A stretch of 64,000 nt of DNA from Desulfobacteraceae bacterium (GTDB lineage Bacteria > Desulfobacterota > Desulfobacteria > Desulfobacterales > Desulfosalsimonadaceae). Below are positions 714-15,694 of this stretch, piece by piece. The stretch spans positions 124,001-188,000 of the forward strand of contig JABZFM010000006.1 of the NCBI GenBank assembly GCA_014237465.1, written 5' to 3'. The position numbers were made by a program, and so were the translations under genes. Each line of letters starts with the position of its first letter. Positions within the stretch are counted from its first letter, which is position 1. A model generated the notes under the pieces. The model saw only the letters and a program-made list of their open reading frames with translations. It made no database searches and was not told where the DNA came from.

Positions 714-1589
714 ATGAACATACTGATTACCGGCGGAAACGGTCAACTGGGAAAAGACTGTGAACATGTTTTTAAAAACAGCTGCCAAACAACCTGTATC
801 GACATTGAAGATCTTGATATCACTGATCCGGATCATGTCGAAGCCGTTGTCAAACAAGTCCGGCCGGGCATCATCATTAATTGTGCGGCGTTTACCCAGG
901 TGGACGCCTGTGAGACCCAAAAAAAACCGGCCTGGAATGTCAATGTCACCGGCCCGAAAAATCTGGCTAAAAGTGCCCGGAAAAATAACTCACTTTTAGT
1001 TCACATCTCAACCGACTATGTATTTGACGGAAAAAAGGAGCCGCCGGGACAATATTCAGAAACCGATACCGCAGCGCCGCTTTCTTATTACGGAATAACC
1101 AAACGCGAAGGCGAGCTTGCCGTCATTCATCACACAAGTAATCATATTATCCTCCGCACGGCATGGCTGTACGGATTTTACGGTCAGAACTTTTTGAAAA
1201 CCATCCTTAAAAAAGCCCTGAACCAACCGGCAATACCGCTTAAAATCGTAAACGACCAGTTTGGTACCCCCACCTGGAGCTACCGCCTGGCCCTTCAAAT
1301 AGCACATCTGGTTAAAAATAAAGGACAGGGCATTTACCACGCCTCTTCCGAAGGTGCCTGTTCCTGGTATGACTTTGCAAAATATTTTCTTGAAAAATTA
1401 AGTGTCGCCTATAATATAAGACCCTGTACAACTGATGAATATCCGACACCTGCCGCCCGGCCAAAATGTTCAATTCTTGACAACCGGCGCCTTAAAAATG
1501 AAAAACTAAACATAATGCAGCACTGGCAGAAGGATCTGGATGAGTATATCCATCAATACGGACAACGATTAATCACGACAATCTCGTAA
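714..1589 (+). CDS. rfbD: dTDP-4-dehydrorhamnose reductase
   Basis: A 291-residue extended SDR that reduces dTDP-4-dehydro-L-rhamnose to dTDP-L-rhamnose with NAD(P)H, the last step of activated rhamnose synthesis for surface polysaccharide. It shows the N-terminal nucleotide-binding motif ITGGNGQLG, the family segment STDYVFDG, and the YxxxK catalytic pair in SYYGITKREGE. Length is normal for RmlD. It is the first of four rhamnose genes on this strand. The last codons and the TAA stop lie inside a family A repeat (from 1584), so the C-terminus has been set by that element. Confidence 0.93.
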   Translation: MNILITGGNGQLGKDCEHVFKNSCQTTCIDIEDLDITDPDHVEAVVKQVRPGIIINCAAFTQVDACETQKKPAWNVNVTGPKNLAKSARKNNSLLVHISTDYVFDGKKEPPGQYSETDTAAPLSYYGITKREGELAVIHHTSNHIILRTAWLYGFYGQNFLKTILKKALNQPAIPLKIVNDQFGTPTWSYRLALQIAHLVKNKGQGIYHASSEGACSWYDFAKYFLEKLSVAYNIRPCTTDEYPTPAARPKCSILDNRRLKNEKLNIMQHWQKDLDEYIHQYGQRLITTIS

Positions 1590-1740
1590 AAAGTCGAATT
1601 TCGATGGCAAAGAAAAAACTCCACCAATCTTATAAAATTGGCAAGGCGCGCAAATTCTGAGTGATGATTCGTACTTAGCGTACTTTGAAGAAACGAAGAA
1701 TGCAGCGCAACGCAGAAGTTGGACTTTTTACGAAGCCATC
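1584..1740. repeat. family A miniature repeat, copy A2, overlapping the rfbD stop
   Basis: A 157-bp element with inverted ends TCGTAAAAAGTC and GACTTTTTACGA, the latter followed by AGCCATC. The left end contains the stop codon of rfbD. The interior resembles the other copies (GGCGCGCAAATTCTGAG) but has a diverged centre. It separates rfbD from rfbB. Confidence 0.85.
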
Positions 1741-1783
1741 AATCCTGGACTGCCGACAATAACCCTACACAGGAGCTGACTTA

Positions 1784-2830
1784 ATGAACCTGCTCGTCAC
1801 CGGCGGTTGCGGTTTTATCGGAACCAACTTTATCCGCTACCTTTTAAACAACTCCGATTTTACCGGACGCATTATCAATGTTGACCGGCTCACGTATGCC
1901 GGAAATCCGGAAAATCTGGCAGACATTGAAAAAATGTTTCCAGACCACTATACATTTGTTCAGGCCGATATCTGTGACCCGGAGAAAATGACCGGGATTT
2001 TTGACGACCATGACATAGACACGGTCTGTCACTTTGCCGCAGAATCCCATGTGGACCGGTCGATTGTCTCACCGGATGATTTTATCAAAACAAATATCAT
2101 CGGCACCTTTAACCTGCTTGAAACCTCAAGAAACCGAAAAAACCGGCTGGCCCGATTTCACCACATCAGCACGGACGAAGTATACGGCAGCCTGGGAAAA
2201 GACGGTTATTTTGTTGAAACAACCCCATACCAGCCCAGCAGCCCGTATTCAGCCTCCAAAGCATCCTCGGACCACCTGGTCCGGGCATACCACACCACCT
2301 ACAATCTGCCGGTGACCCTGTCCAATTGTTCAAACAATTACGGCCCTTACCAGTTTCCGGAAAAACTGATACCGCTCATGATTTTAAATGCTCTTGAAGG
2401 AAAGCCCCTGCCGGTATATGGTGACGGAAAAAATGTCCGGGACTGGCTGTATGTGGATGATCACTGCAGCGCCATCTGGAAAATTATCCGACACGGCAAG
2501 GAAGGAGAAACCTATAATGTCGGCGGGGACTGTGAACTGGAAAACATAAAACTGGTTGAAATGATTTGTGATGCCATTGACAACAGGATCGGTAAAGACT
2601 CAGACAAGTCCCGGAAAGAACTGATCACGTTTGTTACAGACAGACCCGGACATGACCAAAGATATGCCATTGACGCTTCGAAAATCAGAAATGAGATCGG
2701 ATGGACGCCAAAAACCACTATTGAAACAGGACTGGACCATACCATAAAATGGTACCTGGATCATATGGAATGGGTAGACCATGTCAAAAGCGGAGAATAC
2801 CAATCCTGGATCAGTAAGCATTATAAATAA
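1784..2830 (+). CDS. rfbB: dTDP-glucose 4,6-dehydratase
   Basis: A 348-residue extended SDR that converts dTDP-glucose to dTDP-4-dehydro-6-deoxyglucose, using a bound NAD+. Visible landmarks are VTGGCGFIGTNFIR at the N-terminus, HFAAESHVDRS, the active-site region STDEVYG and the catalytic YSASKASSDHLVRAY. The length is standard. The start is supported by an AGGAG ribosome site just before the ATG. It belongs to the rhamnose set, although a repeat separates it from rfbD. Confidence 0.96.
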   Translation: MNLLVTGGCGFIGTNFIRYLLNNSDFTGRIINVDRLTYAGNPENLADIEKMFPDHYTFVQADICDPEKMTGIFDDHDIDTVCHFAAESHVDRSIVSPDDFIKTNIIGTFNLLETSRNRKNRLARFHHISTDEVYGSLGKDGYFVETTPYQPSSPYSASKASSDHLVRAYHTTYNLPVTLSNCSNNYGPYQFPEKLIPLMILNALEGKPLPVYGDGKNVRDWLYVDDHCSAIWKIIRHGKEGETYNVGGDCELENIKLVEMICDAIDNRIGKDSDKSRKELITFVTDRPGHDQRYAIDASKIRNEIGWTPKTTIETGLDHTIKWYLDHMEWVDHVKSGEYQSWISKHYK

Positions 2831-2923
2831 ATCCTGATCCTGAAGATGGGGCATGATACGATTGAATCAATAGATAGCTTGAATTACCGTTATTAATATA
2901 AATTTAGATGATAAGGATTTATT

Positions 2924-3817
2924 ATGAAAGGGATTATTCTTGCCGGCGGTTCCGGAACACGCCTGTATCCGCTAACCCGGGTAACCAGTAAACAGCTTTT
3001 GCCTGTTTACGACAAGCCCATGATTTATTACCCCCTGGCAGTGCTGATGCTCGGCGGTATCCGCGACATTTTGATCATCTCAACCCCGCATGACCTGCCG
3101 AATTTCAAAGAGCTTCTGGGAGATGGATCCTGGCTTGGCATTTCCCTGAGTTATAAAGAACAGCCTCGTCCCGAAGGCCTGGCCCAGGCCTTTATCCTCG
3201 GAGAATCATTTATCGGGGATGATCCGGTCTGCCTGATCCTGGGCGACAACCTGTTCCACGGTCATAATCTTTCCGGAATCATCAAAAATGCATTGCATGT
3301 CAATCACGGCGGGTTAGTTTTCGGCTACCGGGTCAATGATCCGGAGCGGTATGGGGTCGTGGAATTCGGTGATAACGGAAATGTTGTCGGCATTGAAGAA
3401 AAACCCGAAAACCCCAAATCAAAATACGCGGTCTCCGGCCTTTATGTCTATGACAATAAGGTCGTTCAAATCGCAAAAGACCTGAAACCGTCTGATCGCG
3501 GGGAACTTGAGATCACGGATGTTAACAGGGAATATCTCCGCAAAGATGCCCTTAAAGTAGAAATCCTTGGTCGGGGGTTTGCCTGGATGGATATGGGGAC
3601 ACATGAATCCATGCAGCAGGCGGCCAGTTACGTTCGTGCGATCCAGAACCGACAGGGATTTAAAATTGCCTGTGTTGAAGAGATCGCCTACCGGCTGGGC
3701 TATATAAACAGCAATCAATTAAAACAAATTGCATCTGAAATGATAAAAAATGAGTATGGACAATATCTTCATGAAATTTCTGAACTAAAGCCCTCGGAAC
3801 TTGCCAAATGGATGTAA
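2924..3817 (+). CDS. rfbA: glucose-1-phosphate thymidylyltransferase
   Basis: A 297-residue nucleotidyltransferase that joins dTTP and glucose-1-phosphate to make dTDP-glucose, the entry step of rhamnose synthesis. It has the signature [11 protein letters not shown], then [16 protein letters not shown] and the metal-site segment LGDNLFHG. An AAGGA site precedes the ATG. It overlaps the next gene, rfbC, by 10 bases, consistent with translational coupling. Confidence 0.96.
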
Positions 3818-4371
3818 ATATCAAACAATTAGGCCTTCCGGGAGTCTATGTTATTGAACCGGTATGCTTTGAAGACCTTCGCGGTTTTTTCCTGGAAACC
3901 TTTCATCAGCAAAAGTATGAAGCCGCAGGCATTGCCCGGACATTTGTTCAGGACAACCTCTCCCATTCAAGCCGGGGGGTTCTCAGGGGACTCCATTATC
4001 AGCTGAAGCACCCCCAGGGAAAATTGATCTATGCGGTGACCGGCAGCATTTTTGATGTGGCGGTGGATATTCGCCTGGGGTCGCCCACTTTCGGCCAATG
4101 GACGGGGGCGAAATTATCGGCGGCAGACAAGCAACAAATTTATATCCCGGAAGGGTTTGCCCATGGATTTGTGGTTTTGAGTGAATCTGCGGATGTTATC
4201 TACAAATGCACGGATTTATATGCACCGGGGGATGAATATGGCATTTTATGGTCTGACCCTGCCATCGGAATCAACTGGCCGGTTGATTCCCCGGTCCTTT
4301 CCCGGAAAGATCTTGAGAATCCCGAGTTAAAAAAAATCCCCCGCACCTGCTTACCGATCTGGCATCGATAA
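3808..4371 (+). CDS. rfbC: dTDP-4-dehydrorhamnose 3,5-epimerase
   Basis: A 187-residue cupin-fold epimerase that makes dTDP-4-dehydro-L-rhamnose from the 6-deoxyglucose intermediate. Conserved segments are [29 protein letters not shown] (the His is part of the catalytic site) and [13 protein letters not shown]. The start overlaps the end of rfbA. It is the last gene of the rhamnose set. Confidence 0.96.
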
Positions 4372-4644: not shown

Positions 4645-5349
4645 ATGCCCCGGCCCAGAAAAAGTGTTGCTGAATTCGAAACCATTAAAGAACAAATTCT
4701 TGAAGAAGCATTGAAGCTGATGAACCGTCACGGGTTTGACGGTTTTTCCATGCGAAAGCTGGGCAGCCGGCTAGGGGTGTCGGCAAAAACCATTTACAAT
4801 TATTATCAAAACAAGGACGATCTCTACCTGGCCATTTTAACCCGCGGCTTTGAACAATTGTTTGACCGGTTTAACACGGCATTTTCAACCCATCAGGCCC
4901 CCCTGGAAAAATTGAAAGCCATGGGCCGGGCGTACCTGACATTCGGCCTGGAACATGCAAACATCTACAATCTCATGTTCACATGGCATGTGCCCAAATT
5001 CAAGGACTATATCGGAACCCCCATGGAACCGGTGGCCCAGCTTGAACTGGAAACCGCGCTCAAAGTATCGGAAATTTTTATGCAGGCGATTAAAGAGGCC
5101 GCCGGCAATGATGCCATGTCCGAAGATACAGCCCGGTTTCACATGATCTGTGCGTGGAGCCAGATGCACGGATTTATTGCCGGAATCAATAATACCCTGC
5201 TGGATTATATGCATGATAATCCTGTGACGTTAAAAGAGAAAATACTGGACCAGGTATTTGATCAGTTTAAATATCAGCTGAAAAATAAAAACACCGGAGA
5301 AAATGTTTATCCGATTCATTCTATCGAACCGACCGCCCCCAAACCATAA
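4645..5349 (+). CDS. TetR-family transcriptional regulator
   Basis: A 234-residue regulator with an N-terminal helix-turn-helix (about residues 12-60: EALKLMNRHGFDGFSMRKLG, then LGVSAKTIYNYYQNKDDLY) and a divergent ligand-binding C-terminal half, the usual TetR layout. These proteins repress transcription until a small molecule binds. An AAAGGAT site precedes the ATG. It is the first gene of the activase-SDR-glycyl-radical-enzyme run, with 19 bases to the activase, so it probably senses a substrate or product of that pathway; the ligand cannot be told from sequence. Confidence 0.88.
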   Translation: MPRPRKSVAEFETIKEQILEEALKLMNRHGFDGFSMRKLGSRLGVSAKTIYNYYQNKDDLYLAILTRGFEQLFDRFNTAFSTHQAPLEKLKAMGRAYLTFGLEHANIYNLMFTWHVPKFKDYIGTPMEPVAQLELETALKVSEIFMQAIKEAAGNDAMSEDTARFHMICAWSQMHGFIAGINNTLLDYMHDNPVTLKEKILDQVFDQFKYQLKNKNTGENVYPIHSIEPTAPKP

Positions 5350-5368
5350 CCTACTTTTCGATGATAAT

Positions 5369-6292
5369 ATGATGCAAAAAACACCGCTGATTCTTGACAT
5401 AAAAGGCAATTCATTAGATGACGGCCCCGGCATCCGGACGGTTGTTTTCTTTAAAGGATGTCCCCTGTCCTGTGTGTGGTGTCACAACCCGGAAAGCAAA
5501 AAAGCCGGTGCCGAGATATCTTTTGATAAAACAGAATGTGTTGGGTGCGACACCTGCATCCAGTCCTGCCCGGAAAACGCCCTGGATCGTAAAAATCCGT
5601 TTTTCATTGACCGGGCCCAATGCACCCTTTGCGGTGTCTGTGTGGAGAATTGTCCGTCGGGCGCCCTGTCCATGGTTGGTAAAACAATGCGCATAGAAGA
5701 TATCGTCGCAATGGCTGCAAAGGACAAACCGTTTTACAAAAATTCCAACGGCGGCGTGACATTGTCCGGCGGCGAACCCACGCTGTTTATGGACTTTTTA
5801 TCCGACCTGCTCAAACACCTCAAAGACGAGGGCATCCACACACTTGTCGAAACCTGCGGTCTTTTTGAATTCCAACAGTTTGAAAAAAAAATTTTGCCAT
5901 ATATTGACACCATCTATTATGATATCAAAATACATGATCCTGACGCTCACAAACAATTTTGCGGCGTTAAAAATGATCTGATCCTGAAAAACTTTATTAA
6001 GTTAAACGCCATTTCAGCTGAAAACGGCCTTGAACTGCTTGCCCGCACACCGCTCATACCCAACATTACTGCGACGGATAAAAACCTGAACCAAATAGCG
6101 GGTTTTTTAAAAACCCTGAAAATCCGGCAAGCCCGATTACTTGCTTACAATCCTTTGTGGCATGAAAAAAATGAAAAAATCGGAACCCAAAATTCCTTTC
6201 AAAACAACAAAGATATGACCACCTGGATCCCGAAAGAAAAACTCGAAACGTATCGATCCATATTCACTGAAAAAGGCATTCATACAGGATAA
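5369..6292 (+). CDS. glycyl-radical enzyme activating enzyme (radical SAM)
   Basis: A 307-residue radical SAM activase. Cys31, Cys35 and Cys38 in KGCPLSCVWCHNPE form the CX3CX2C site of the SAM-binding cluster. An inserted ferredoxin domain follows with two CX2CX2CX3C sets (CVGCDTCIQSCP and CTLCGVCVENCP), and GGVTLSGGEPTLF is the SAM-contact motif. Such enzymes abstract a hydrogen from glycine in a partner glycyl-radical enzyme, here almost certainly the protein at 7358. The reading frame is open back to 5303, but the ATG at 5369 is preferred because it avoids overlap with the TetR gene and begins at the usual family N-terminus (LDIKGNSLDDGPG). Confidence 0.95.
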   Translation: MMQKTPLILDIKGNSLDDGPGIRTVVFFKGCPLSCVWCHNPESKKAGAEISFDKTECVGCDTCIQSCPENALDRKNPFFIDRAQCTLCGVCVENCPSGALSMVGKTMRIEDIVAMAAKDKPFYKNSNGGVTLSGGEPTLFMDFLSDLLKHLKDEGIHTLVETCGLFEFQQFEKKILPYIDTIYYDIKIHDPDAHKQFCGVKNDLILKNFIKLNAISAENGLELLARTPLIPNITATDKNLNQIAGFLKTLKIRQARLLAYNPLWHEKNEKIGTQNSFQNNKDMTTWIPKEKLETYRSIFTEKGIHTG

Positions 6293-6313
6293 ATATTTAT
6301 GCAAGGGGGAACC

Positions 6314-7300
6314 ATGAGCAAAAAAGCGCTGGTGACAGGGGCCACCGGATTTATCGGAAGCCGGTTATGCAGGGAGTTGAAAAAAGAGAACTGGGAAATC
6401 CGGGCACTGGCTCTGGAAGGTGAAAACTGCGACCATATTTCAGATGATGTTTCAGAGATTGTCACAGGAGACATTACCCGCCGGCAAACCCTGGACGGAA
6501 TCGGCGACGGCATGGATGTGGTGTTTCACCTGGCAGCCCGTGTCCTGGATTACGGATCTAAAAAACAGTTTTATGCGCCTATTTATGACGGCACGCAAAA
6601 CATGCTTCAAGCCTGTGCAAACCAGGCGTCCAGATTCCTGTTTGTCAGCTCCATTGCCGCGTGCGGCCTGGGCAAACACTTAAAGGGGTTTACCGAAACG
6701 GATATCCCCAAAAAATCCGGGATCCCATATAATGATGCCAAAAATGACGCGGAAAAACGAGTCCGGTCCTATCAGGGCCAATTTAAAAACGGATGTGTCA
6801 TTGTCCGGCCGTCCAACGTGATCGGCCCAAGAAGCGCCTGGGTGGATGAACTGGGAAAGCAATTCCTCAAATCCGTTGTCCCCTTAATTGACAAGGGACA
6901 ATACAGTGCCAGCCTGATTTATGTGGATAACCTGGTCAATGGAATCCTGTTAGCCGGTGAAACAGACGCTGCATCCGGCCAGACATATCAGTTCAGGGAC
7001 GACTGGGATGTTACCTGGAAACAGTATTTAACGGATTTATCCGCCCTTGTCGGGAAAAAACCAATGGGCAGTGTCCCCTATTCCGTGGCATGGGCCATCG
7101 CCACTGTTGCCGAAAAGCTGACCACCCCCCTCGGCATCCGGCCGCCGGCAACCCGGCTGGCTGCTGCCGTCATGGGCCGAGACAATGACGTGGATACCTC
7201 CAAGGCACAGAAAGAACTGGGCTGGCAGACAAAAATTTCATACCCCGAAGCCATGGATCAGATCGGTACATGGGTTCGAGATAATTTATTAACTAATTAA
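6314..7300 (+). CDS. NAD(P)-dependent epimerase/dehydratase-type SDR (3-beta-HSD-like)
   Basis: A 328-residue extended SDR with TGATGFIGSRL at the N-terminus, the segment DVVFHLAARV, SSIAACG as the serine region and YNDAKNDAEK as the YxxxK catalytic pair. The layout resembles the 3-beta-hydroxysteroid dehydrogenase/NSDHL and dihydroflavonol-reductase branch rather than sugar-nucleotide enzymes; that placement is my reading of the pattern. The start is chosen at 6314 because AAGGGGGA lies 5 bases before it. It sits between activase and glycyl-radical enzyme, an unusual position, and presumably oxidises or reduces an alcohol/ketone in the same pathway. Confidence 0.85.
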   Translation: MSKKALVTGATGFIGSRLCRELKKENWEIRALALEGENCDHISDDVSEIVTGDITRRQTLDGIGDGMDVVFHLAARVLDYGSKKQFYAPIYDGTQNMLQACANQASRFLFVSSIAACGLGKHLKGFTETDIPKKSGIPYNDAKNDAEKRVRSYQGQFKNGCVIVRPSNVIGPRSAWVDELGKQFLKSVVPLIDKGQYSASLIYVDNLVNGILLAGETDAASGQTYQFRDDWDVTWKQYLTDLSALVGKKPMGSVPYSVAWAIATVAEKLTTPLGIRPPATRLAAAVMGRDNDVDTSKAQKELGWQTKISYPEAMDQIGTWVRDNLLTN

Positions 7301-7357
7301 AATTGACGGTGAAATAAATTGTAGCTTTTTGCAAAACCATCAAATAGGAGATTCCTT

Positions 7358-10300
7358 ATGTTCTTCTTCCAGCCAACCACCGCCAGGATAAAATTTTCCC
7401 CGACCAATATTTTATTAAATACCCTTTTGCGGGTGTTTGCGGCCAATTTTAATTTTCGGCCCGGACTGAAAAAATACTTAAAAAGCGACCAGGGCTGGAT
7501 CGATTTTACGATCGGGTTTCGAACAGATTCAGGTTCGGTAAAAGCCGCGGTACTGTTTAAGAACGGTAAAGTGAGTGTTTCGAAAATCATTCCTGAAAAA
7601 GTAGATACCATGCTGACGTTTCACTCAGACGGCGCTGTCCTTAAACTGCTGGGGGCAACGCCGACCGAGCAGATTTTTATGGTTTTAAAAGGCCAGTTAA
7701 GCCCCAAAGGAAATCAATCTTATCTTAATCTTTTCTTCTTTTTCCTGTCATTGCTCTTAAATTCCAAACAGAAAAAACTCATGGAAAAAGAGCGTAAAAT
7801 TTCGAAAAAAGAACTATTAAAGGAATCTCCGACCGCGAAAACGGAACTCAGCGACGACCTGATCAAACGATTTGGCGTTCGAATGAAAGCCGATACCATT
7901 GATAAAAATGTAAAATACCTGAAAGATCCGTTTTTATCTGATTACGGCCTGGATAATTTTCCCCGTGTAAAAAAATATTTAGACATTCATTTTGAAGTCA
8001 AGCCCGAGGTCTGCCCGGAACTGCCAAAGCTTGTGACGGATTGGCACAAGGCAAATGGCTATGAAACGGATAAAAACGGCAAGCCCTGGAATCCCCTTTT
8101 GAGAAAGGCCCATGCCTATAAATATTTAATGGAAAATCGAAAACCGCTTATCCGGGGAAACGATCTGATTGCCGGCACCACCACAACCAAAGATATCGGC
8201 GTGGTGGTTTACCCGGAAGGCCACGGCACCATGATCTGGGGGGAACTCCTGACCGTACCCCACCGGACATTAAATCCCTATGATGTATCCGAAGAAACAT
8301 TAAATATCCTTCACCATGAGATCTTTCCCTTTTGGTCAAAACGCAATTTCAAGGAATGGGTGAGGGAAGAATATGACAGCCCCCTGTGCCAGCAGATTGA
8401 TGAACGCTTTGCCATCTATTTTATCTGGAAATCGGTCACCATTTCCCATACCATCCCGGATTTCCCCAAACTCCTGAGCATGGGAACCAGCGGCATTATT
8501 TCTGAAATTAATGATCAGATGAAATCCTTTGCAAAAAATTCAAATGAAAAAAATACCCTTGAAGCCATGATTCTCTGCCTGGAAGGGCTGACCGCATATT
8601 CAAAAAATCTGGCCAAAACCGCGGCCAGTGCCGCAGCATCTGAAAATAATCCGCAGCGTAAGGCAGAGCTTGAAAAACTGGCCAAAACCTGCGATCAGGT
8701 GGTTGAAAAACCCGCCCGGACCCTGGATGAAGCGGTCAATGCCATGTGGATATCCTGGGTGGGCCTGCACATGGAGAGCACCAATGCCGGGCTGTCCCTG
8801 GGCCGCCTGGACCAGTGGCTCCAGCCCTATTTTCTGGCAGATATGGAAAAACTGAATTCCGGACCGGAACAAGCGAAATACATCAAACATGCTGTTGAAC
8901 TCATTGGCTGTTTTTACATGCGCTGCACCGACCACCTGCCCCTGACCCCGGATATTGCCAACTGGGTGTTTGGCGGCAGTTCCTCGGACCAGGCCATTAC
9001 GTTGGGCGGCGTAACGCCAGAAGGAGACGACGGGGTCTGCGACATGACCTATATCTTTTTAAAAGTCACGGAAATGCTTTCCATCCGGGACCCCAATGTC
9101 AATGCCCGGTTTAACCCGGACAAAAACAGCGACACCTATTTAAAGCGGCTGTGCGAAGTCAACCTGATCACGTCTGCCACACCGTCCATGCACAATGATA
9201 ACGAAGTCATGGCGTCTTTGGAAGAATTCAACTATGAGATTGAAGACCTGCGGAACTGGTCCGCTACTGGGTGCGTGGAGCCCACCCTGTCCGGTAAACA
9301 TATCGGCCATACCAATTTTCAGATGATGAACATGGTGGCCGCCCTTGAAATGGCGTTAAACAACGGAAAACACCCGCTGCTTAACTGGAAGTTAGGTCCA
9401 AACACAGGAGAAATTGGCACCGGAAAAATTAACAACGACAACATAGCAGATAAACCGTTTAAAACCTTTGATGATTTTTTTAACGCATTTATCACCCAGT
9501 TTAAGTTCATCATTGATCAGTCCATTGAATACAATGAAATGCTGGCCCAAGCCCATCAGGTCATCCGCCCCACGCCCCTGCTGTCTTCAGTAATCGGCGA
9601 CTGCATCAGTAAAGGAAAAGACGTGACTATCGGCGGCGCCAAATACAACAGCTCCGGCGCAGCGCTGATCGGGCTGGCAGATATCACGGATTCACTCCTG
9701 GTCATTAAAAAACTGGTGTATGATGACAAAAAAGTGTCGTTTGCTGACCTGAAAAAGGCGGTGGATGAAAATTTTGAAAATGATCCGGCCCTGCATGCCA
9801 TGGTCACTAAAAAAGTACCTTTGTTCGGGTCCGGCAGTGATGAAGCCGTGGCAATGGCGGACCGGATTGCCAAATTCGCCCATGATTATTATGGCAGCAA
9901 AAAACACTATCGCGGTGGCAAGTACACGGTGGGCTTCTGGTCCATGTCCAACCATGTGGCATACGGCACCTTGACCGGTGCCCTGCCGTCCGGGCGGCTG
10001 AGCGGCAAGGCATTCACCCCGGGACTGACCCCGGAACCCAATGCATCTAAAAATCTGCTGGACAATATCCGGGACGTGGCCCGGCTGGATACGAAAAACA
10101 TCAACAACAATATCGCGTTTAACGTGAAAGTGATTCCAACTCCCGAAGACACACGGGAAAAAACCGTTAATGACATGTTCTCCTATGTGAAAACCTATTT
10201 TGATCTGGGCGGCATGCAGATGCAGATGAACGTGGTGACCTCGGAAACACTCAAGGACGCCATGGCACACCCGGAGAACTACCGGAACCTGCTGGTGCGA

Positions 10301-10384
10301 ATTTCCGGATATAACGCCTATTTTGTGACTTTAAACAAGGACATGCAGCTGGAACTGATTGAACGAGCGGAATACGGGATGTAA
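7358..10384 (+). CDS. glycyl-radical enzyme with N-terminal SCP2-like domain
   Basis: A 1008-residue protein, about 150 residues longer than usual members. Residues about 30-135 resemble the SCP2 sterol/lipid-carrier fold (FKNGKVSVSK, VDTMLTFHSDGAVLKLLG, VLKGQLSPKGN). Residues about 160-1008 are a pyruvate formate-lyase-like barrel. The thiyl cysteine is Cys639 in SATGCVEPTLSG with Glu641 two residues on, the CxE pattern of glycerol, propanediol and hydroxyproline dehydratases and choline lyase. The radical glycine is Gly984 in VRISGYNAYF, 24 residues from the end. The ATG follows AGGAG. It is likely a C-O, C-N or C-S lyase or dehydratase acting on a hydrophobic substrate; the actual reaction is unknown. 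Confidence 0.93.
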   Translation: MFFFQPTTARIKFSPTNILLNTLLRVFAANFNFRPGLKKYLKSDQGWIDFTIGFRTDSGSVKAAVLFKNGKVSVSKIIPEKVDTMLTFHSDGAVLKLLGATPTEQIFMVLKGQLSPKGNQSYLNLFFFFLSLLLNSKQKKLMEKERKISKKELLKESPTAKTELSDDLIKRFGVRMKADTIDKNVKYLKDPFLSDYGLDNFPRVKKYLDIHFEVKPEVCPELPKLVTDWHKANGYETDKNGKPWNPLLRKAHAYKYLMENRKPLIRGNDLIAGTTTTKDIGVVVYPEGHGTMIWGELLTVPHRTLNPYDVSEETLNILHHEIFPFWSKRNFKEWVREEYDSPLCQQIDERFAIYFIWKSVTISHTIPDFPKLLSMGTSGIISEINDQMKSFAKNSNEKNTLEAMILCLEGLTAYSKNLAKTAASAAASENNPQRKAELEKLAKTCDQVVEKPARTLDEAVNAMWISWVGLHMESTNAGLSLGRLDQWLQPYFLADMEKLNSGPEQAKYIKHAVELIGCFYMRCTDHLPLTPDIANWVFGGSSSDQAITLGGVTPEGDDGVCDMTYIFLKVTEMLSIRDPNVNARFNPDKNSDTYLKRLCEVNLITSATPSMHNDNEVMASLEEFNYEIEDLRNWSATGCVEPTLSGKHIGHTNFQMMNMVAALEMALNNGKHPLLNWKLGPNTGEIGTGKINNDNIADKPFKTFDDFFNAFITQFKFIIDQSIEYNEMLAQAHQVIRPTPLLSSVIGDCISKGKDVTIGGAKYNSSGAALIGLADITDSLLVIKKLVYDDKKVSFADLKKAVDENFENDPALHAMVTKKVPLFGSGSDEAVAMADRIAKFAHDYYGSKKHYRGGKYTVGFWSMSNHVAYGTLTGALPSGRLSGKAFTPGLTPEPNASKNLLDNIRDVARLDTKNINNNIAFNVKVIPTPEDTREKTVNDMFSYVKTYFDLGGMQMQMNVVTSETLKDAMAHPENYRNLLVRISGYNAYFVTLNKDMQLELIERAEYGM

Positions 10385-11120: not shown

Positions 11121-11975
11121 ATGACTAAAAAAGTAATCATCACTGCTGCATTATCAGGCGCGGGAACATTTAAAAACAACAATCCAGCCGTACCCTACAC
11201 CTCTGAAGAATTTGCTGAAGAGGCTGCTAAATGCTTCAAGGCCGGTGCCGCAATGGTTCATGTCCATGCACGTCAAGAAGACGGCATGCCGACCCATGAC
11301 GTGGAAAGAATCAGGGCGACCCACGATGCCATCAAGGACCGAACCCCGGAGCTTATCGTGAATTTAAGCTCGGCTGTTGGAATGGGAAAGACCCCTGAGC
11401 AAAGAATAACTCAGATCGTTGAAATCAAGCCTGAAATGGCATCTCTTAATACAAATACGATGAATTTCGGGATTGTGGATAGAAAATCAGGACAGGTTCT
11501 GGTGGACTATGTTTTTGAAAACACATTTACCATGCTTCAGGATTTTGGCAAAGCCATGGAGAAAAACGGCGTCAAACCGGAACTTGAAATTTATGATGCC
11601 GGCGGGCTTGATAATGTTCTTTTGATTATGAAGCAGGATATATTTTCATCCCCGATGAATTTTAATTTTGTATGGGGGGTTGCCGGCGGCCAACGGTTCA
11701 GGCCCGAAGCCTTTGTTACACTTGTAAATGCCCTGCCGCCCAATGCGAACTATACAACATGCGGGGTTGGAAATGATGAATTTCCGGCAATTATGCAGTC
11801 GTGCCTGATGAACGGCCATATGAGGGTAGGGCTTGAAGACAATGTCAAAGTGCCCAACGGAGAGCTTGCAAAAGGAAACTATGAGCTGGTGGAATGGGCG
11901 GTAAGAATTGCTGAGATAATGGGCAAGGAACCGGCAACACCTGATGAAGCAAGGAAAATAATGGGACTGGGATAA
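11121..11975 (+). CDS. beta-keto acid cleavage enzyme (BKACE/DUF849 family)
   Basis: A 284-residue TIM-barrel enzyme of the 3-keto-5-aminohexanoate cleavage family, which uses a metal ion to split a beta-keto acid with acetyl-CoA, giving acetoacetate and a new CoA ester. The family metal ligands are visible in MVHVHAR (two histidines) and in the late VGLEDN (glutamate), and the N-terminus VIITAALSGAG is characteristic. AAGGAGGGG gives a strong ribosome site. It leads a run with CoA-transferase genes, as lysine-fermentation genes do, but the other lysine genes are absent here. The substrate is therefore open; DUF849 members accept many side chains. Confidence 0.9.
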   Translation: MTKKVIITAALSGAGTFKNNNPAVPYTSEEFAEEAAKCFKAGAAMVHVHARQEDGMPTHDVERIRATHDAIKDRTPELIVNLSSAVGMGKTPEQRITQIVEIKPEMASLNTNTMNFGIVDRKSGQVLVDYVFENTFTMLQDFGKAMEKNGVKPELEIYDAGGLDNVLLIMKQDIFSSPMNFNFVWGVAGGQRFRPEAFVTLVNALPPNANYTTCGVGNDEFPAIMQSCLMNGHMRVGLEDNVKVPNGELAKGNYELVEWAVRIAEIMGKEPATPDEARKIMGLG

Positions 11976-12023: not shown

Positions 12024-13013
12024 TTGGATATTATAGATCAAGGCCAGGGAACACTGTTTGCGGATCCGGATCCGGACAAGGCCAGGGAGTTTTTCCGGGC
12101 AAAAAATCGTAAGATGGAAAACAAGGTTATGAATCTTAAAGATGCCATCACAAAATATGTTCATGACGGTGACTATTTGGCAATAGGAGGATTCGGGGCC
12201 AACAGAACCCCTGTTGCGGCATGTCACGAAATTGTCCGGCAGGGAAGGAAAAATATGGGATTTGCAGGGCATACGGCAACCCATGATATGGAAATACTAA
12301 GTGCGGGAGAAATTTACAATCGGCTTGATGTGGCTTATGTCGTGGGACTCGAAGCACGAGGGCTATCCCCCTGTTCCCGCAGCTATCTTGAATCCGGCAA
12401 GGTCAAGGTTACGGAATGGACCAACTACAGTCTTACTGCAAGATTAAAGGCTGCGGCAATGGGTGTGCCCTATGTCCCCATAAGGAATATAATGGGAACG
12501 GATACATTAAAATACAGCGCCGCAAAAACAACAAAGTGTCCGTATACCGGGAAAAAGGTTGTGCTTATGCCGGCCCTTTATCCCGATGTTTCAATCATAC
12601 ACGTGCATGAGGCGGATGTCTTTGGGAACTCAAAATTTAGGGGGATAGCTGTATCCGACCTGGATCTGGCCAACGCCACCAGGCGCTTAATCATTACAAC
12701 CGAGAGGTTGATCCGCCACGATGAGATCACAATAAATCCGTCTTTAACCCGCATTCCGTATATTCTTGTCGATGCCGTCTGCGAAGTTCCGTTTGGGGCA
12801 TATCCCGGAACCATGCCGTATGAGTATTTTTCAGACGAGGACCACCTGAGGGAATGGATGGCTGTTGAAAAGGACCATGAGAAATTCAAGGAGTTTTTAA
12901 GCCGCAACATATTTGATTGCAAGGACCACGATGAGTACATCGCCAGAAACGGTGGGCCAAAAAAAATGCGTGAACTCAGAGCCAAAGAATTGCTTTTACA
13001 TAAGGAGGTTTGA
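12024..13013 (+). CDS. CoA-transferase, alpha subunit (GctA-like)
   Basis: A 329-residue class I CoA-transferase subunit resembling glutaconate CoA-transferase A. Landmarks are DYLAIGGFGANRTPVA near residue 55 and IIHVHEADVFGNSKF in the middle. With the next gene it would move CoA between acyl-CoA and a free acid, for instance activating the substrate or product of the BKACE step. The likely start is TTG at 12024, preceded by AAGGAGG; the frame has no better placed ATG. Its stop is 2 bases before the start of the beta subunit. Confidence 0.88.
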   Translation: MDIIDQGQGTLFADPDPDKAREFFRAKNRKMENKVMNLKDAITKYVHDGDYLAIGGFGANRTPVAACHEIVRQGRKNMGFAGHTATHDMEILSAGEIYNRLDVAYVVGLEARGLSPCSRSYLESGKVKVTEWTNYSLTARLKAAAMGVPYVPIRNIMGTDTLKYSAAKTTKCPYTGKKVVLMPALYPDVSIIHVHEADVFGNSKFRGIAVSDLDLANATRRLIITTERLIRHDEITINPSLTRIPYILVDAVCEVPFGAYPGTMPYEYFSDEDHLREWMAVEKDHEKFKEFLSRNIFDCKDHDEYIARNGGPKKMRELRAKELLLHKEV

Positions 13014-13801: not shown

Positions 13802-15694
13802 ATGTTAGAAACTTCAAATGGTAATTCGCAGCAGTCCTGGCTGGAAGCTTTCGGTGGAGACAAGCAGGTCAGCGCTGAAACGGCCATATCCAAAATCAAA
13901 AACGGAAGCCGGATATTCATCGGCACGGGATGCGGTGAACCCCAGCATCTGATCAAGTCCATGGTGAATGATCACAGCAAGAAAAACATGATCATTTATC
14001 AGATGCTGTCCATCACCCTGGCCGATTATATGGACGACGAATCGTTCCTGAAACGGTTTGCCCTGAAGCTTTTTTTTATCAGCCGGCCACTTCGCAAAGC
14101 TGCTTTTGAAGGTAAACTCGACTATATCCCGGCATATCTGTCGCAAATACCGGGCCTGTTTGCCAGCCAACGGATCGGTCTGGATGTGGCCCTGATTCAG
14201 GTAAGTCCGCCGGATCGTTTCGGATACTGCAGCCTTGGCGTTTCGGTGGATATCACCCGTTCCGGCATTGAGAATGCCAAATTGGTCATTGCCCAGGTAA
14301 ACCCCCAAATGCCGCGAACCTGGGGGGACAGTTTTGTACATGTTGACGAAATCGACTACCTGGTTTTTCATGAAGAACCGCTGGTTGAAGGTCTGAAAGA
14401 TATATTGGATAATGATATCTCCCGCCGGATCGGTCATTATGTTTCCCAGCTGATCGGAGATGGCGCAACCATCCAGATTGGTTTTGGACAGTTGCCGTAT
14501 ACGATTCTGAAATATCTGGAAAACAAGAAAGATTTAGGGCTCCACACCCAGCTGATCACGGACGGGTTATTGCCGCTTTTTGAAAAAGGCGTTATCACCA
14601 ATCGTAAAAAAAGCCTGCTGCCCGGGCGCGTGGTTGCCTCCATGTGCATGGGTACCAAGAAGATTTACGACTACATTAACAACAACCCCATCTTCTATTT
14701 CAGGTCATCCGAATTTGTAAACGATCCAACGGTAATTGCACGGAACGACAACATGGTTTCCATCAGCTCGGCTTTGGAAGTGGATTTGACCGGACAGGTA
14801 TCCACGGATTCGATTGGTTACCTTTTTTACAGCGGGATTGGTGATCAGGTCGATTTCCTGCGGGGAACCGCCATGTCAAAGAATGGTTTTTCCATCATCG
14901 CTCTTCCTTCTACGGCTCAGGATGGTCAGCTTTCACGTATTGTTTCTTCTTTAAGCGAAGGCGCCGGAGTCGCCACTACCCGCGGAGATATCAATTTTAT
15001 TGTCACTGAATATGGTATTGCCGAACTACAGGGAAAGAGCATCTATCAGCGGGTGATTGAAATGGCCCAGATCGCCCATCCCAAATTCAGGGAGGACTTG
15101 ATCAAGGTCGCCAAAAAACATCACTATATTTTTAAAGGCCAGCTTCCCCCGGCCAAAGAGGATTTACTGTTTCTTGAAAACTACAAAAGCAGCCTGCTGC
15201 TTCCCAATGGTAAAACCATAAATTTTCGTCCGATACTTCCTTCAGATGAATTATCATCGCGTAATTTTATCTACTCATTGAAGAAAGAAACATTGTATCA
15301 AAGATTCTTCAGCGAATTCATTTCTCATAAAATAGTCAATAAGCAATGGGCCCTTATAGATTATCATAACAATATGGCGATTATCGGCCTGGTGCAGAGA
15401 GGCGGGCATAAGGAAATCATGGCCATTGGGTCATATGCCAAAATGAATGAGACCACCGTTGAAGTCGGTTTTGTCGTAAGAGAGGATTTCCAGGGAGTTG
15501 GTATCTGCAGTTATGTGTTAAAGGTGCTTGAGAAGATTGCCAAAGAAAACGGATTTTCTAAATTTTCGGCAACCGTGCTTCGCAGTAACAAGAATATGCA
15601 AAATGTATTTCAAAAAAGATTCCCTGATGCCCAGTTTAAATATGATGGTTCTGAAGTCTATGTGACAATGAATCTTGCAGAAGCGGCTGATTAG
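13802..15694 (+). CDS. acetyl-CoA hydrolase/transferase-like protein fused to a GNAT domain
   Basis: A 630-residue two-domain protein. Residues about 20-440 match the acetyl-CoA hydrolase/4-hydroxybutyrate CoA-transferase family (IQIGFGQLPYTIL, NDNMVSISSALEVDLTGQVS, GIGDQVDFLRGTAMSKNG, FIVTEYGIAEL). Residues about 465-625 form a GNAT acetyltransferase domain (VEVGFVVREDFQGVGICSYV). The position where I expect the catalytic glutamate of the family (pattern HTEM/L-xSDG) reads LHTQLITDG, so Gln250 replaces Glu; transferase activity is therefore in doubt. It closes the BKACE operon. The fusion resembles acyl-CoA-sensing or protein-acylating enzymes. Confidence 0.85.
   Translation: MLETSNGNSQQSWLEAFGGDKQVSAETAISKIKNGSRIFIGTGCGEPQHLIKSMVNDHSKKNMIIYQMLSITLADYMDDESFLKRFALKLFFISRPLRKAAFEGKLDYIPAYLSQIPGLFASQRIGLDVALIQVSPPDRFGYCSLGVSVDITRSGIENAKLVIAQVNPQMPRTWGDSFVHVDEIDYLVFHEEPLVEGLKDILDNDISRRIGHYVSQLIGDGATIQIGFGQLPYTILKYLENKKDLGLHTQLITDGLLPLFEKGVITNRKKSLLPGRVVASMCMGTKKIYDYINNNPIFYFRSSEFVNDPTVIARNDNMVSISSALEVDLTGQVSTDSIGYLFYSGIGDQVDFLRGTAMSKNGFSIIALPSTAQDGQLSRIVSSLSEGAGVATTRGDINFIVTEYGIAELQGKSIYQRVIEMAQIAHPKFREDLIKVAKKHHYIFKGQLPPAKEDLLFLENYKSSLLLPNGKTINFRPILPSDELSSRNFIYSLKKETLYQRFFSEFISHKIVNKQWALIDYHNNMAIIGLVQRGGHKEIMAIGSYAKMNETTVEVGFVVREDFQGVGICSYVLKVLEKIAKENGFSKFSATVLRSNKNMQNVFQKRFPDAQFKYDGSEVYVTMNLAEAAD

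Follow-up and report, generated by a model that had tools for sequence, protein, structure and literature searches.

Glycyl radical enzymes (GREs) catalyse many of the difficult reactions on which life in anoxic places depends and, to our knowledge, the named classes act mainly on small soluble molecules or on hydrocarbons. What would such an enzyme do with a lipid-carrier domain at its N-terminus? The question is raised by a 64,000-nucleotide stretch of a Desulfobacteraceae genome (assembly GCA_014237465.1, contig JABZFM010000006.1, positions 124,001 to 188,000 of the forward strand; hereafter the window), in which a single open frame appears to join an SCP2-type domain to a complete glycyl radical enzyme, referred to here as SCP2-GRE. 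A sequence-only reading of the window had proposed this architecture. Comparison of sequences, predicted folds and gene neighbourhoods points to an uncharacterised enzyme class that attacks lipid-like molecules without oxygen. The explanation that we favour, with a chance that we put just short of even, is a class of glycyl radical eliminase carrying its own lipid-binding module, the leading guess for its substrate being 1-O-alkylglycerol or a similar vicinal-diol lipid.

The gene is a single open frame of 1008 codons on the plus strand, and an AGGAG at ~7346-7350 precedes its ATG. Its features are given below, where ‘rows’ are those of the main alignment: 63 full-length sequences, namely the window protein and 62 relatives.

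7358..10384, + strand: SCP2-GRE, a 1008 aa glycyl radical enzyme with an N-terminal SCP2-type domain (open frame, Pfam, alignment and fold)
7391..7795, + strand: predicted SCP2-type lipid-carrier domain, residues ~12-146 (Pfam SCP2 in 31/61 aligned N-domains; AF2 model with Foldseek and VIA-align)
7994..9967, + strand: PFL-like barrel, residues 213-870 (Pfam PF02901, E 2e-158; Foldseek leads to propanediol and glycerol dehydratases)
8429..8431, + strand: codon of Lys358 (Lys in 63/63 aligned rows)
8447..8449, + strand: codon of His364, the equivalent of glycerol dehydratase His164 (alignment; 62/63 rows)
9272..9274, + strand: codon of Cys639, the predicted thiyl-radical cysteine (63/63 rows; aligns with Cys433 of 1r8w)
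9278..9280, + strand: codon of Glu641, the predicted general base of eliminase GREs, in a GCVE motif (63/63 rows; aligns with Glu435 of 1r8w)
10013..10327, + strand: glycyl radical domain, residues 886-990 (Pfam PF01228 Gly_radical, E 7e-24)
10307..10309, + strand: codon of Gly984, the predicted glycyl radical site, in RISGYNAYF (63/63 rows)

Is the N-terminal part an SCP2 domain? Because Pfam is blank for this part of the window protein (a scan of residues 1-161 gives no match at E<=10, PF02036 included), its identity has to be settled by its relatives and by its fold. PF02036 (SCP2) matches 31 of the 61 aligned N-domains, the window protein not among them, with a best E of 1.7e-4; the next commonest Pfam family accounts for 3/61. 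Other profile methods see less: compared by hhalign with 14 SCP2 domains of the window's genome, the N-domain profile matches weakly (E 0.0023, probability 12.7%), and as an HMM query against PDB sequences it returns nothing at E<=10. The fold is clearer. In the AF2 model of the whole protein (mean pLDDT 87, pTM 0.91) each ten-residue block of residues 21-90 exceeds 90, and the N-domain modelled alone (residues 1-146) reaches a pLDDT of 83. Foldseek with this latter model lists SCP2 structures first (UbiJ-SCP2 6h6p, E 2e-6, and the SCP2 domains of alkylsulfatases). VIA-align gives SCP2 rows with Z from 13.1 down to 7.9 (4axh and 2yhe, 13.1; 1ikt, a human SCP2-like domain, 12.3, with a root-mean-square deviation of 2.6 over 111 residues; 1pz4, with fatty acid bound, 11.5), against at most 7.8 for acetyltransferases. 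The proposed N-terminal SCP2-type domain is thus borne out by the relatives and by the predicted fold. It runs slightly wider than the residues ~30-135 of the sequence-only reading, and from these comparisons and the model we accept that residues ~12-146 adopt an SCP2 fold. The last helix (residues 120-140) is long and very hydrophobic and may cap the pocket or touch a membrane.

A linker follows, and homology to GREs begins near residue 200. The sequence-only reading had counted the enzyme part from residue 160 onwards, and its description of a complete GRE with Cys639, Glu641 and Gly984 stands: Pfam recognises the PFL-like and Gly_radical domains, and the three residues are invariant. The protein has the marks of the superfamily: the barrel and Gly_radical domains, the glycine loop, the barrel cysteine, the fold and an activase gene nearby. 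Cys639, Glu641 and His364 align with Cys433, Glu435 and His164 of the glycerol dehydratase 1r8w, residues that we take to be catalytic, as we take its His281, Ser282 and Asp447 to bind the diol. The Cys-X-Glu pair of GRE eliminases is present, and the three diol-binding residues are replaced by Ala477, Gly478 and Asn653, a pattern that does not fit a glycerol or propanediol dehydratase. Since the eliminase core is kept and the diol-binding residues are not, we infer that the enzyme works as an eliminase on something other than glycerol.

The combination of SCP2 and GRE is not an oddity of one genome: it defines a family across several phyla. A search found 109 stretches in genome contigs that encode relatives; the best 80 of these, together with the loci of the window's own genome, hold 87 full-length open frames that pass the filter, 71 of them non-identical. 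The nearest relatives come from records titled Desulfococcus, Desulfobacteraceae and Desulfobacterales, and the titles of matching records extend to Syntrophaceae/Smithella, Spirochaetes, Actinomycetota, Myxococcota, Gammaproteobacteria and Chloroflexi (for Chloroflexi, two partial matches). Genomes searched with A2, the profile of the N-domain, give matches at E<=1e-5 in 44/395 genomes of the window's own phylum, fused and standalone forms together, in 23/296 of the phylum of locus L104 (a Spirochaete by title), in 7/296 of the phylum of L054 (Candidatus Solincola; the phylum also holds L070, titled Acidimicrobium) and in 1/274 of the class of L086, the one being the genome of L086 itself. 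The window's genome has three fused SCP2-GRE copies among nine GRE genes (contigs C66, C21, C61, C47, C5, C57, C3, C46 and C49). Its SCP2 matches number 20 at E<=0.1, of which 16 pass the Pfam cut-off.

In a second lineage the SCP2 part is a gene of its own. The A2 profile finds 20 short-frame matches in the window's phylum, and the loci of 18 were examined, two weak ones in genome G189 being left out. A GRE gene directly adjoins the standalone SCP2 gene in 15/18 (L155-L164, L166, L167, L176-L178), and an activase gene lies on its other side in 13/18. The three loci without a GRE are L165 (no GRE, no activase), L175 (activase only, on a 3.6-kb contig) and L179 (a GRE stub only); L140 is a further split case with a broken GRE frame. 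The split-lineage GREs are ~38-45% identical to fused ones (best BLAST match). This lineage is independent support that the SCP2 part and the GRE part work together, and nothing else argues as strongly, in our view, for a part of the SCP2 domain in the reaction as the keeping of the two both as a fusion and as neighbours. As a separate observation, the GRE genes of L140 (4847-7331) and L167 (4450-7038) are each broken into two open frames, by assembly error or decay.

Where do these enzymes stand among GREs? Two trees address this: one of 61 rows, kept from 74 (L140, L147, L148 and ten near-duplicates left out), and one of 36 of those rows, built by a careful search from GRE bodies without the N-domain and holding no PflB row. 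In the 36-row tree the 21 fused and split enzymes lie on one side of a branch with support 100/100. Within them the fused enzymes form a clade, also with 100/100, and support for the split group is 84/55 there and 91 (SH-aLRT) in the 61-row tree. As far as trees without characterised HypD, HPAD, indoleacetate decarboxylase, IslA/IseG, BssA or MasD sequences can tell, fused and split enzymes are one clade apart from the characterised GREs sampled: glycerol/propanediol dehydratase, CutC, HpsG, N-methyl-hydroxyproline dehydratase and YbiW, with PflB added in the 61-row tree. X-succinate-synthase-like paralogs also fall outside, in trees without characterised Bss or Mas and on long branches that make their own position unsure. 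The nearest rows in the 61-row tree are uncharacterised GREs of related genomes (paralogs L131-L134, L139 and L142) and Archaeoglobus fulgidus PFL2 (2f3o). The separate SCP2-bearing clade that the sequence-only reading had named as support for a new class is thus found, relative to the GREs sampled. Of the curated NCBIfam classes HypD, CutC, HpsG/HpfG, HPAD, indoleacetate decarboxylase, PflB and PFL2-3, none scores above its cut-off. The highest score is that of TIGR01774, the broad PFL2-3 model (488 bits, cut-off 678); HypD has 410/1100, HpsG 373/1000 and CutC 367/1050, and HPAD too scores far below its own. Foldseek places 1,2-propanediol dehydratase, glycerol dehydratase, HypD, A. fulgidus PFL2 and CutC among the closest folds, with identities of ~27%. 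What distinguishes the clade in the alignment is Lys358: every fused row, and every split row that covers the position, has lysine there, and lysine is not among the (up to three) commonest residues at this position in other groups. Asn476 and Trp861 are also conserved in the clade, yet occur in part of the neighbouring group.

The gene stands last in an operon (TetR, then GRE activase, then extended short-chain dehydrogenase/reductase (SDR), then SCP2-GRE), whose other members are:

4645..5349, + strand: TetR-family regulator (Pfam TetR_N, E 2e-14)
5303..6292, + strand: GRE activase of the radical SAM type, with a CX3CX2C motif and a pair of 4Fe-4S ferredoxin motifs (NCBIfam TIGR02494 PFLE_PFLC, 291 bits, cut-off 174; counted from the first start codon, the true start being probably further in)
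6299..7300, + strand: SDRe, an extended SDR of 3beta-HSD / HpnA / OleD-like type (Pfam Epimerase, E 1e-31; 3Beta_HSD, E 2e-27)

To what extent is this arrangement shared? Among 81 GRE-bearing loci, flanks of no less than 2.5 kb upstream and 3 kb downstream are available in 41. On the same strand and at most 4.5 kb away, these carry an activase (37 loci), a TetR regulator (27), SDRe (9) or a second SDR type, SDRc (12); 15 have any SDR and six both, all co-directional with the GRE. In L044 and L073 the two SDRs form one protein, which scores highest with the NCBIfam model PRK07201 (178 and 180 bits, cut-off 549), a layout presumably like that of a Marinobacter alcohol-forming fatty-acyl-CoA reductase. 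The best-scoring models for SDRe are HpnA and OleD, far below their curated cut-offs; it also matches the sterol demethylase SdmB.

Unusual layouts occur as well. A Desulfobacterium metagenome-assembled genome has a cluster of three SCP2-GRE genes with a lone activase between the first and the second (L081:4305-14270). Two GREs, one of 1118 aa in L145:925-4281 (G018:C74) and one of 1134 aa in L146:328-3732 (G010:C109), have an activase-like radical SAM region fused in front and so would bring their activase with them (in L145, Radical_SAM at 50-207, PFL-like from 291 and Gly_radical at 997-1101; in L146 the fusion is assigned by HMM). In the window, a dTDP-rhamnose gene cluster (rmlD, rmlB, rmlA, rmlC; 714-4371) lies immediately upstream of the operon.

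The reaction that we propose would have three stages: (i) the activase would install a radical on Gly984, from where it would pass to Cys639; (ii) the Cys639 thiyl radical would take a hydrogen from a carbinol carbon, in an amphiphile with its alkyl tail bound in the SCP2 domain; (iii) Glu641 would deprotonate that hydroxyl while the neighbouring group leaves, protonated near His364. The products would be a carbonyl compound and the leaving group and, where present, the SDRs of the operon would act as dehydrogenases on a long-chain carbonyl or alcohol. A conserved glutamate that deprotonates the substrate hydroxyl is also part of the mechanism proposed for isethionate lyase, as set out in PMC6453916. 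The role of the SCP2 domain as a carrier that presents a hydrophobic substrate to the barrel, as first supposed from sequence, is plausible by analogy, since alkylsulfatases likewise join an SCP2-like domain to an enzyme of alkyl chains. Taken together, an O2-independent eliminase for a lipid-like hydroxy substrate is what we infer; that the substrate is a lipid-like vicinal-hydroxy compound is held with moderate confidence, and that it is an alkylglycerol with low-to-moderate confidence, as the leading and unproven guess. A 1-O-alkylglycerol or similar vicinal-diol lipid would be either cleaved to a long-chain alcohol and a C3 carbonyl, as by an ether lyase, or dehydrated.

The guess comes from glycerol and ether genes, which were sought by BLAST with a handful of queries in loci L001-L188 (for the genes of L216, also L209-L228). 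L216 has an FGGY kinase, an alkyl-dihydroxyacetone-phosphate-synthase-like (AGPS-like) protein and a GlpD-like protein on the opposite strand beside the operon; the AGPS-like protein scores 212 bits to AGPS 4bby, against 74.5 for D-lactate dehydrogenase, the next family. In L104 the genes after the activase, on the same strand, encode an FGGY kinase and a GlpD-like protein; the latter shares 56% identity with its counterpart in L216. The gene next to the SCP2-GRE of L086 encodes a PF04116 protein that may resemble alkylglycerol monooxygenase; the PDB has no chain related to it, and there is no curated model. Genome content points the same way. In the phylum of the L104 Spirochaete, an AGPS-like gene (E<=1e-60) is found in 20/23 genomes with an A2 match and in 63/273 without (Fisher 1.2e-9). 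In the window's phylum, every genome whose fused match is strong (21) was set against 20 that have no match, and five whose fused matches are all divergent were left out; the counts are 17/21 and 4/20 at >=430 bits (Fisher 1.4e-4), or 18/21 and 5/20 at E<=1e-60. The window's genome itself has two AGPS-like genes. A GlpD-like or FGGY neighbour is present in 13/20 AGPS loci inspected (4/10 and 9/10), both AGPS loci of the window's genome included; at L239, one of these neighbours, GlpD-like, is only 27% identical. None of the 20 AGPS loci has an adjoining SCP2-GRE, and L216 is the only such case seen.

A cluster of regulator, GlpD-like, AGPS-like and FGGY kinase genes recurs in anaerobes (L241:9158-15114, L244:6767-12508, L243:6354-10593, L239:9203-13193, L240:7728-12007) and looks like an alkylglycerol-phosphate module. 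Two incomplete versions, L239 and L240, are in the window's genome. Desulfatibacillum alkenivorans, according to PMC11150832, makes alkyl ether lipids by another enzyme, Ger.

Several points weigh against this reading. Glycerol or ether genes stand beside the GRE in few loci only: L104, L216 and L086, with a GlpK on the other strand at L180. The AGPS co-occurrence statistics ignore shared descent; their query came from an SCP2-GRE-positive genome, and the 430-bit cut was chosen after the data had been seen. Counted by hand over families, the own-phylum figures shrink to 5/6 and 4/16, family f43 being counted in both groups; in family f26, the genomes G095, G329 and G424 have the GRE and lack an AGPS-like gene. 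With the diol-binding residues replaced, the pocket gives no sign of its own of a glycerol head group, and the invariant Lys358 could instead point to an anionic group in the substrate. SDRs are missing within 4.5 kb in 26/41 loci. The contrast between these neighbourhoods and the 228 kb further out at the same loci (one TetR, one SDRc and no match on the other strand) is favoured by construction, as the HMMs were built from genes of these very loci. Genes downstream in the window, tried as the next steps of a ketone or beta-keto-acid pathway, were dropped because orthologous loci do not share them: BLAST finds no homolog of the beta-keto acid cleavage gene (BKACE, 11121-11975) in other loci, and what it finds for the CoA transferase (12024-13013) is limited to a homolog with 30% identity near the L149 SCP2-GRE and a fragment at L135.

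A bolder form of the alkylglycerol reading makes the enzyme a glycyl radical alkylglycerol lyase that cleaves ether lipids independently of O2, has a built-in or separate lipid carrier and recycles the ether lipids of dead cells in anoxic sediment. In this full form we hold it to be unlikely; if true, it would be an anaerobic counterpart of alkylglycerol monooxygenase in sulfate reducers, syntrophs and spirochaetes.

Of the rival explanations, the one that survives best keeps the lipid eliminase and gives its substrate another head group. The enzyme would then dehydrate long-chain 1,2-diols, or dehydrate or deaminate amino-diols (sphingoids), and the SDRs would reduce or oxidise the carbonyl product. 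It shares the catalytic core with the alkylglycerol reading, and its other support comes from the SDRs. SDRc may be like SDRs of the 3-ketosphinganine-reductase type, and a related SDR fragment upstream of the own-genome GRE of L135 matches the KdsR model with 84 bits (cut-off 400), whereas for the SDRc of L065 the top scores go to general SDR models (PRK06181, 175 bits, cut-off 215), with KdsR outside the best 25. That SDRe scores best with HpnA and OleD would suit such a pathway, a point weakened by how far below the cut-offs both scores lie. No sphingolipid or diol-lipid genes were recognised among the annotated neighbours, a minority of all neighbours. We regard this alternative as somewhat unlikely.

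Could the SCP2-type domain be a structural, membrane-attachment or protein-contact module, on an enzyme whose substrate is small and soluble? Its carrier function comes by analogy, the helix after the domain core (120-140) is very hydrophobic, and acetyltransferases such as Eis are among the weaker fold matches. The retention of the domain, fused or as a neighbouring gene, is what is expected of a functional partner, and SDRs cluster with the SCP2-GRE in 15/41 loci, against a small soluble substrate. We regard this explanation as quite unlikely. A hydrocarbon reading, in which the SCP2 domain brings in an alkane for fumarate addition as in alkylsuccinate synthase, is disfavoured and has slim prospects. 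By record title the family is present in D. alkenivorans, Desulfosudis oleivorans and Smithella, which are alkane or alkene users. However, the X-succinate-synthase-like GREs of these genomes lie outside the clade (with long branches that leave their own position uncertain), both the GCVE core and His364 match eliminases, and many carriers belong to the phyla of a Spirochaete and of an actinobacterium. An isoprenoid, hopanoid or sterol substrate is likewise very improbable: UbiJ, an SCP2 protein of ubiquinone synthesis, is among the top fold matches and SDRe leans towards HpnA and SdmB, but those scores are far below cut-off and no isoprenoid-specific genes were recognised among the annotated neighbours, a minority of those listed.

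Other genes recur near particular members of the family. DUF6765 (PF20551) stands beside nine split loci, assigned by Pfam scan in L140, L160 and L162 and by alignment in the others (L160:7903-8985, L161:6910-7971, L164:7678-8739, L163:7893-8957, L166:5900-6973, L162:2616-3737, L179:2659-3780, L140:8760-9866, L155:5115-6209). It has no match in the PDB; a faint match to zinc-dependent phospholipase C (E ~0.02, in the two members shown) and invariant His/Asp residues suggest a zinc hydrolase, a lead that is not used as evidence here. A protein of ~800-820 aa also recurs beside split loci, its likeness judged by eye (L160:1592-4003, L161:504-2975, L163:1515-3974, L164:1260-3728, L166:7217-9673); in the two members scanned, Pfam gave no family in one and a chance-level match in the other. 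A gene in the window (13802-15694), for a protein of CoA-transferase/hydrolase plus acetyltransferase type, has relatives near SCP2-GREs in L193 and L198, on the same strand, and in L083, on the other. MaoC and hydantoinase-like genes beside paralog L137/L189 were set aside, having no family in other loci. So were the genes next to paralog C61 that look by eye like those of an acyl-CoA synthetase and a deacetylase; they recur only around its close relatives L190, L193, L198 and L200.

If the lipid reading is true, radical eliminase chemistry extends to membrane-type lipids, through a clade coupled to a lipid carrier in several phyla, and the anaerobic breakdown of long-lived lipids, such as the alkyl ethers among sediment biomarkers, would become testable. 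The split lineage, with carrier and enzyme as separate genes, is an experimental handle on the role of the carrier. We found no published work that links GREs with SCP2 in a search mostly of literature free of subscription, where the sole paper with both terms concerns wheat bunt fungi (PMC9172201).

How does SCP2-GRE compare with known systems? Its closest folds, the B12-independent glycerol/1,2-propanediol dehydratases (1r8w, 5i2g, 9rco; ~27% identity, TM to target ~0.9), align at the catalytic Cys, Glu and His, but differ in having no SCP2 domain, in their substrate-binding residues (His281, Ser282, Asp447) and in forming a separate clade. CutC (choline trimethylamine-lyase) and HpsG (sulfopropanediol dehydratase) have the GCxE eliminase motif in common with it and are set apart by curated models that score far below cut-off; the position of CutC Thr502 is Thr652 here, a threonine in 63/63 rows. 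A. fulgidus PFL2 (2f3o), the best PDB sequence match, has no SCP2 domain and a title that names no function, and the paralogs that stand nearest in the tree together with it have no SCP2 domain either. MasD and BssA, the (1-methylalkyl)succinate and benzylsuccinate synthases, are GREs of anaerobic hydrocarbon users with hydrophobic substrates, as PMC12358834 and PMC12583861 describe. The X-succinate-synthase-like rows lie outside the SCP2-GRE clade and differ at the active site. The alkylsulfatases SdsA1, PisA1 and YjcS approach SCP2-GRE from the other side: their SCP2 domain shares the fold of the N-domain (Z up to 13.1) and is attached to an enzyme that acts on alkyl chains. There the SCP2-like domain is C-terminal and the enzyme a zinc hydrolase. 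Among these systems, SCP2-GRE is the proposed GRE eliminase clade defined by its SCP2 partner.

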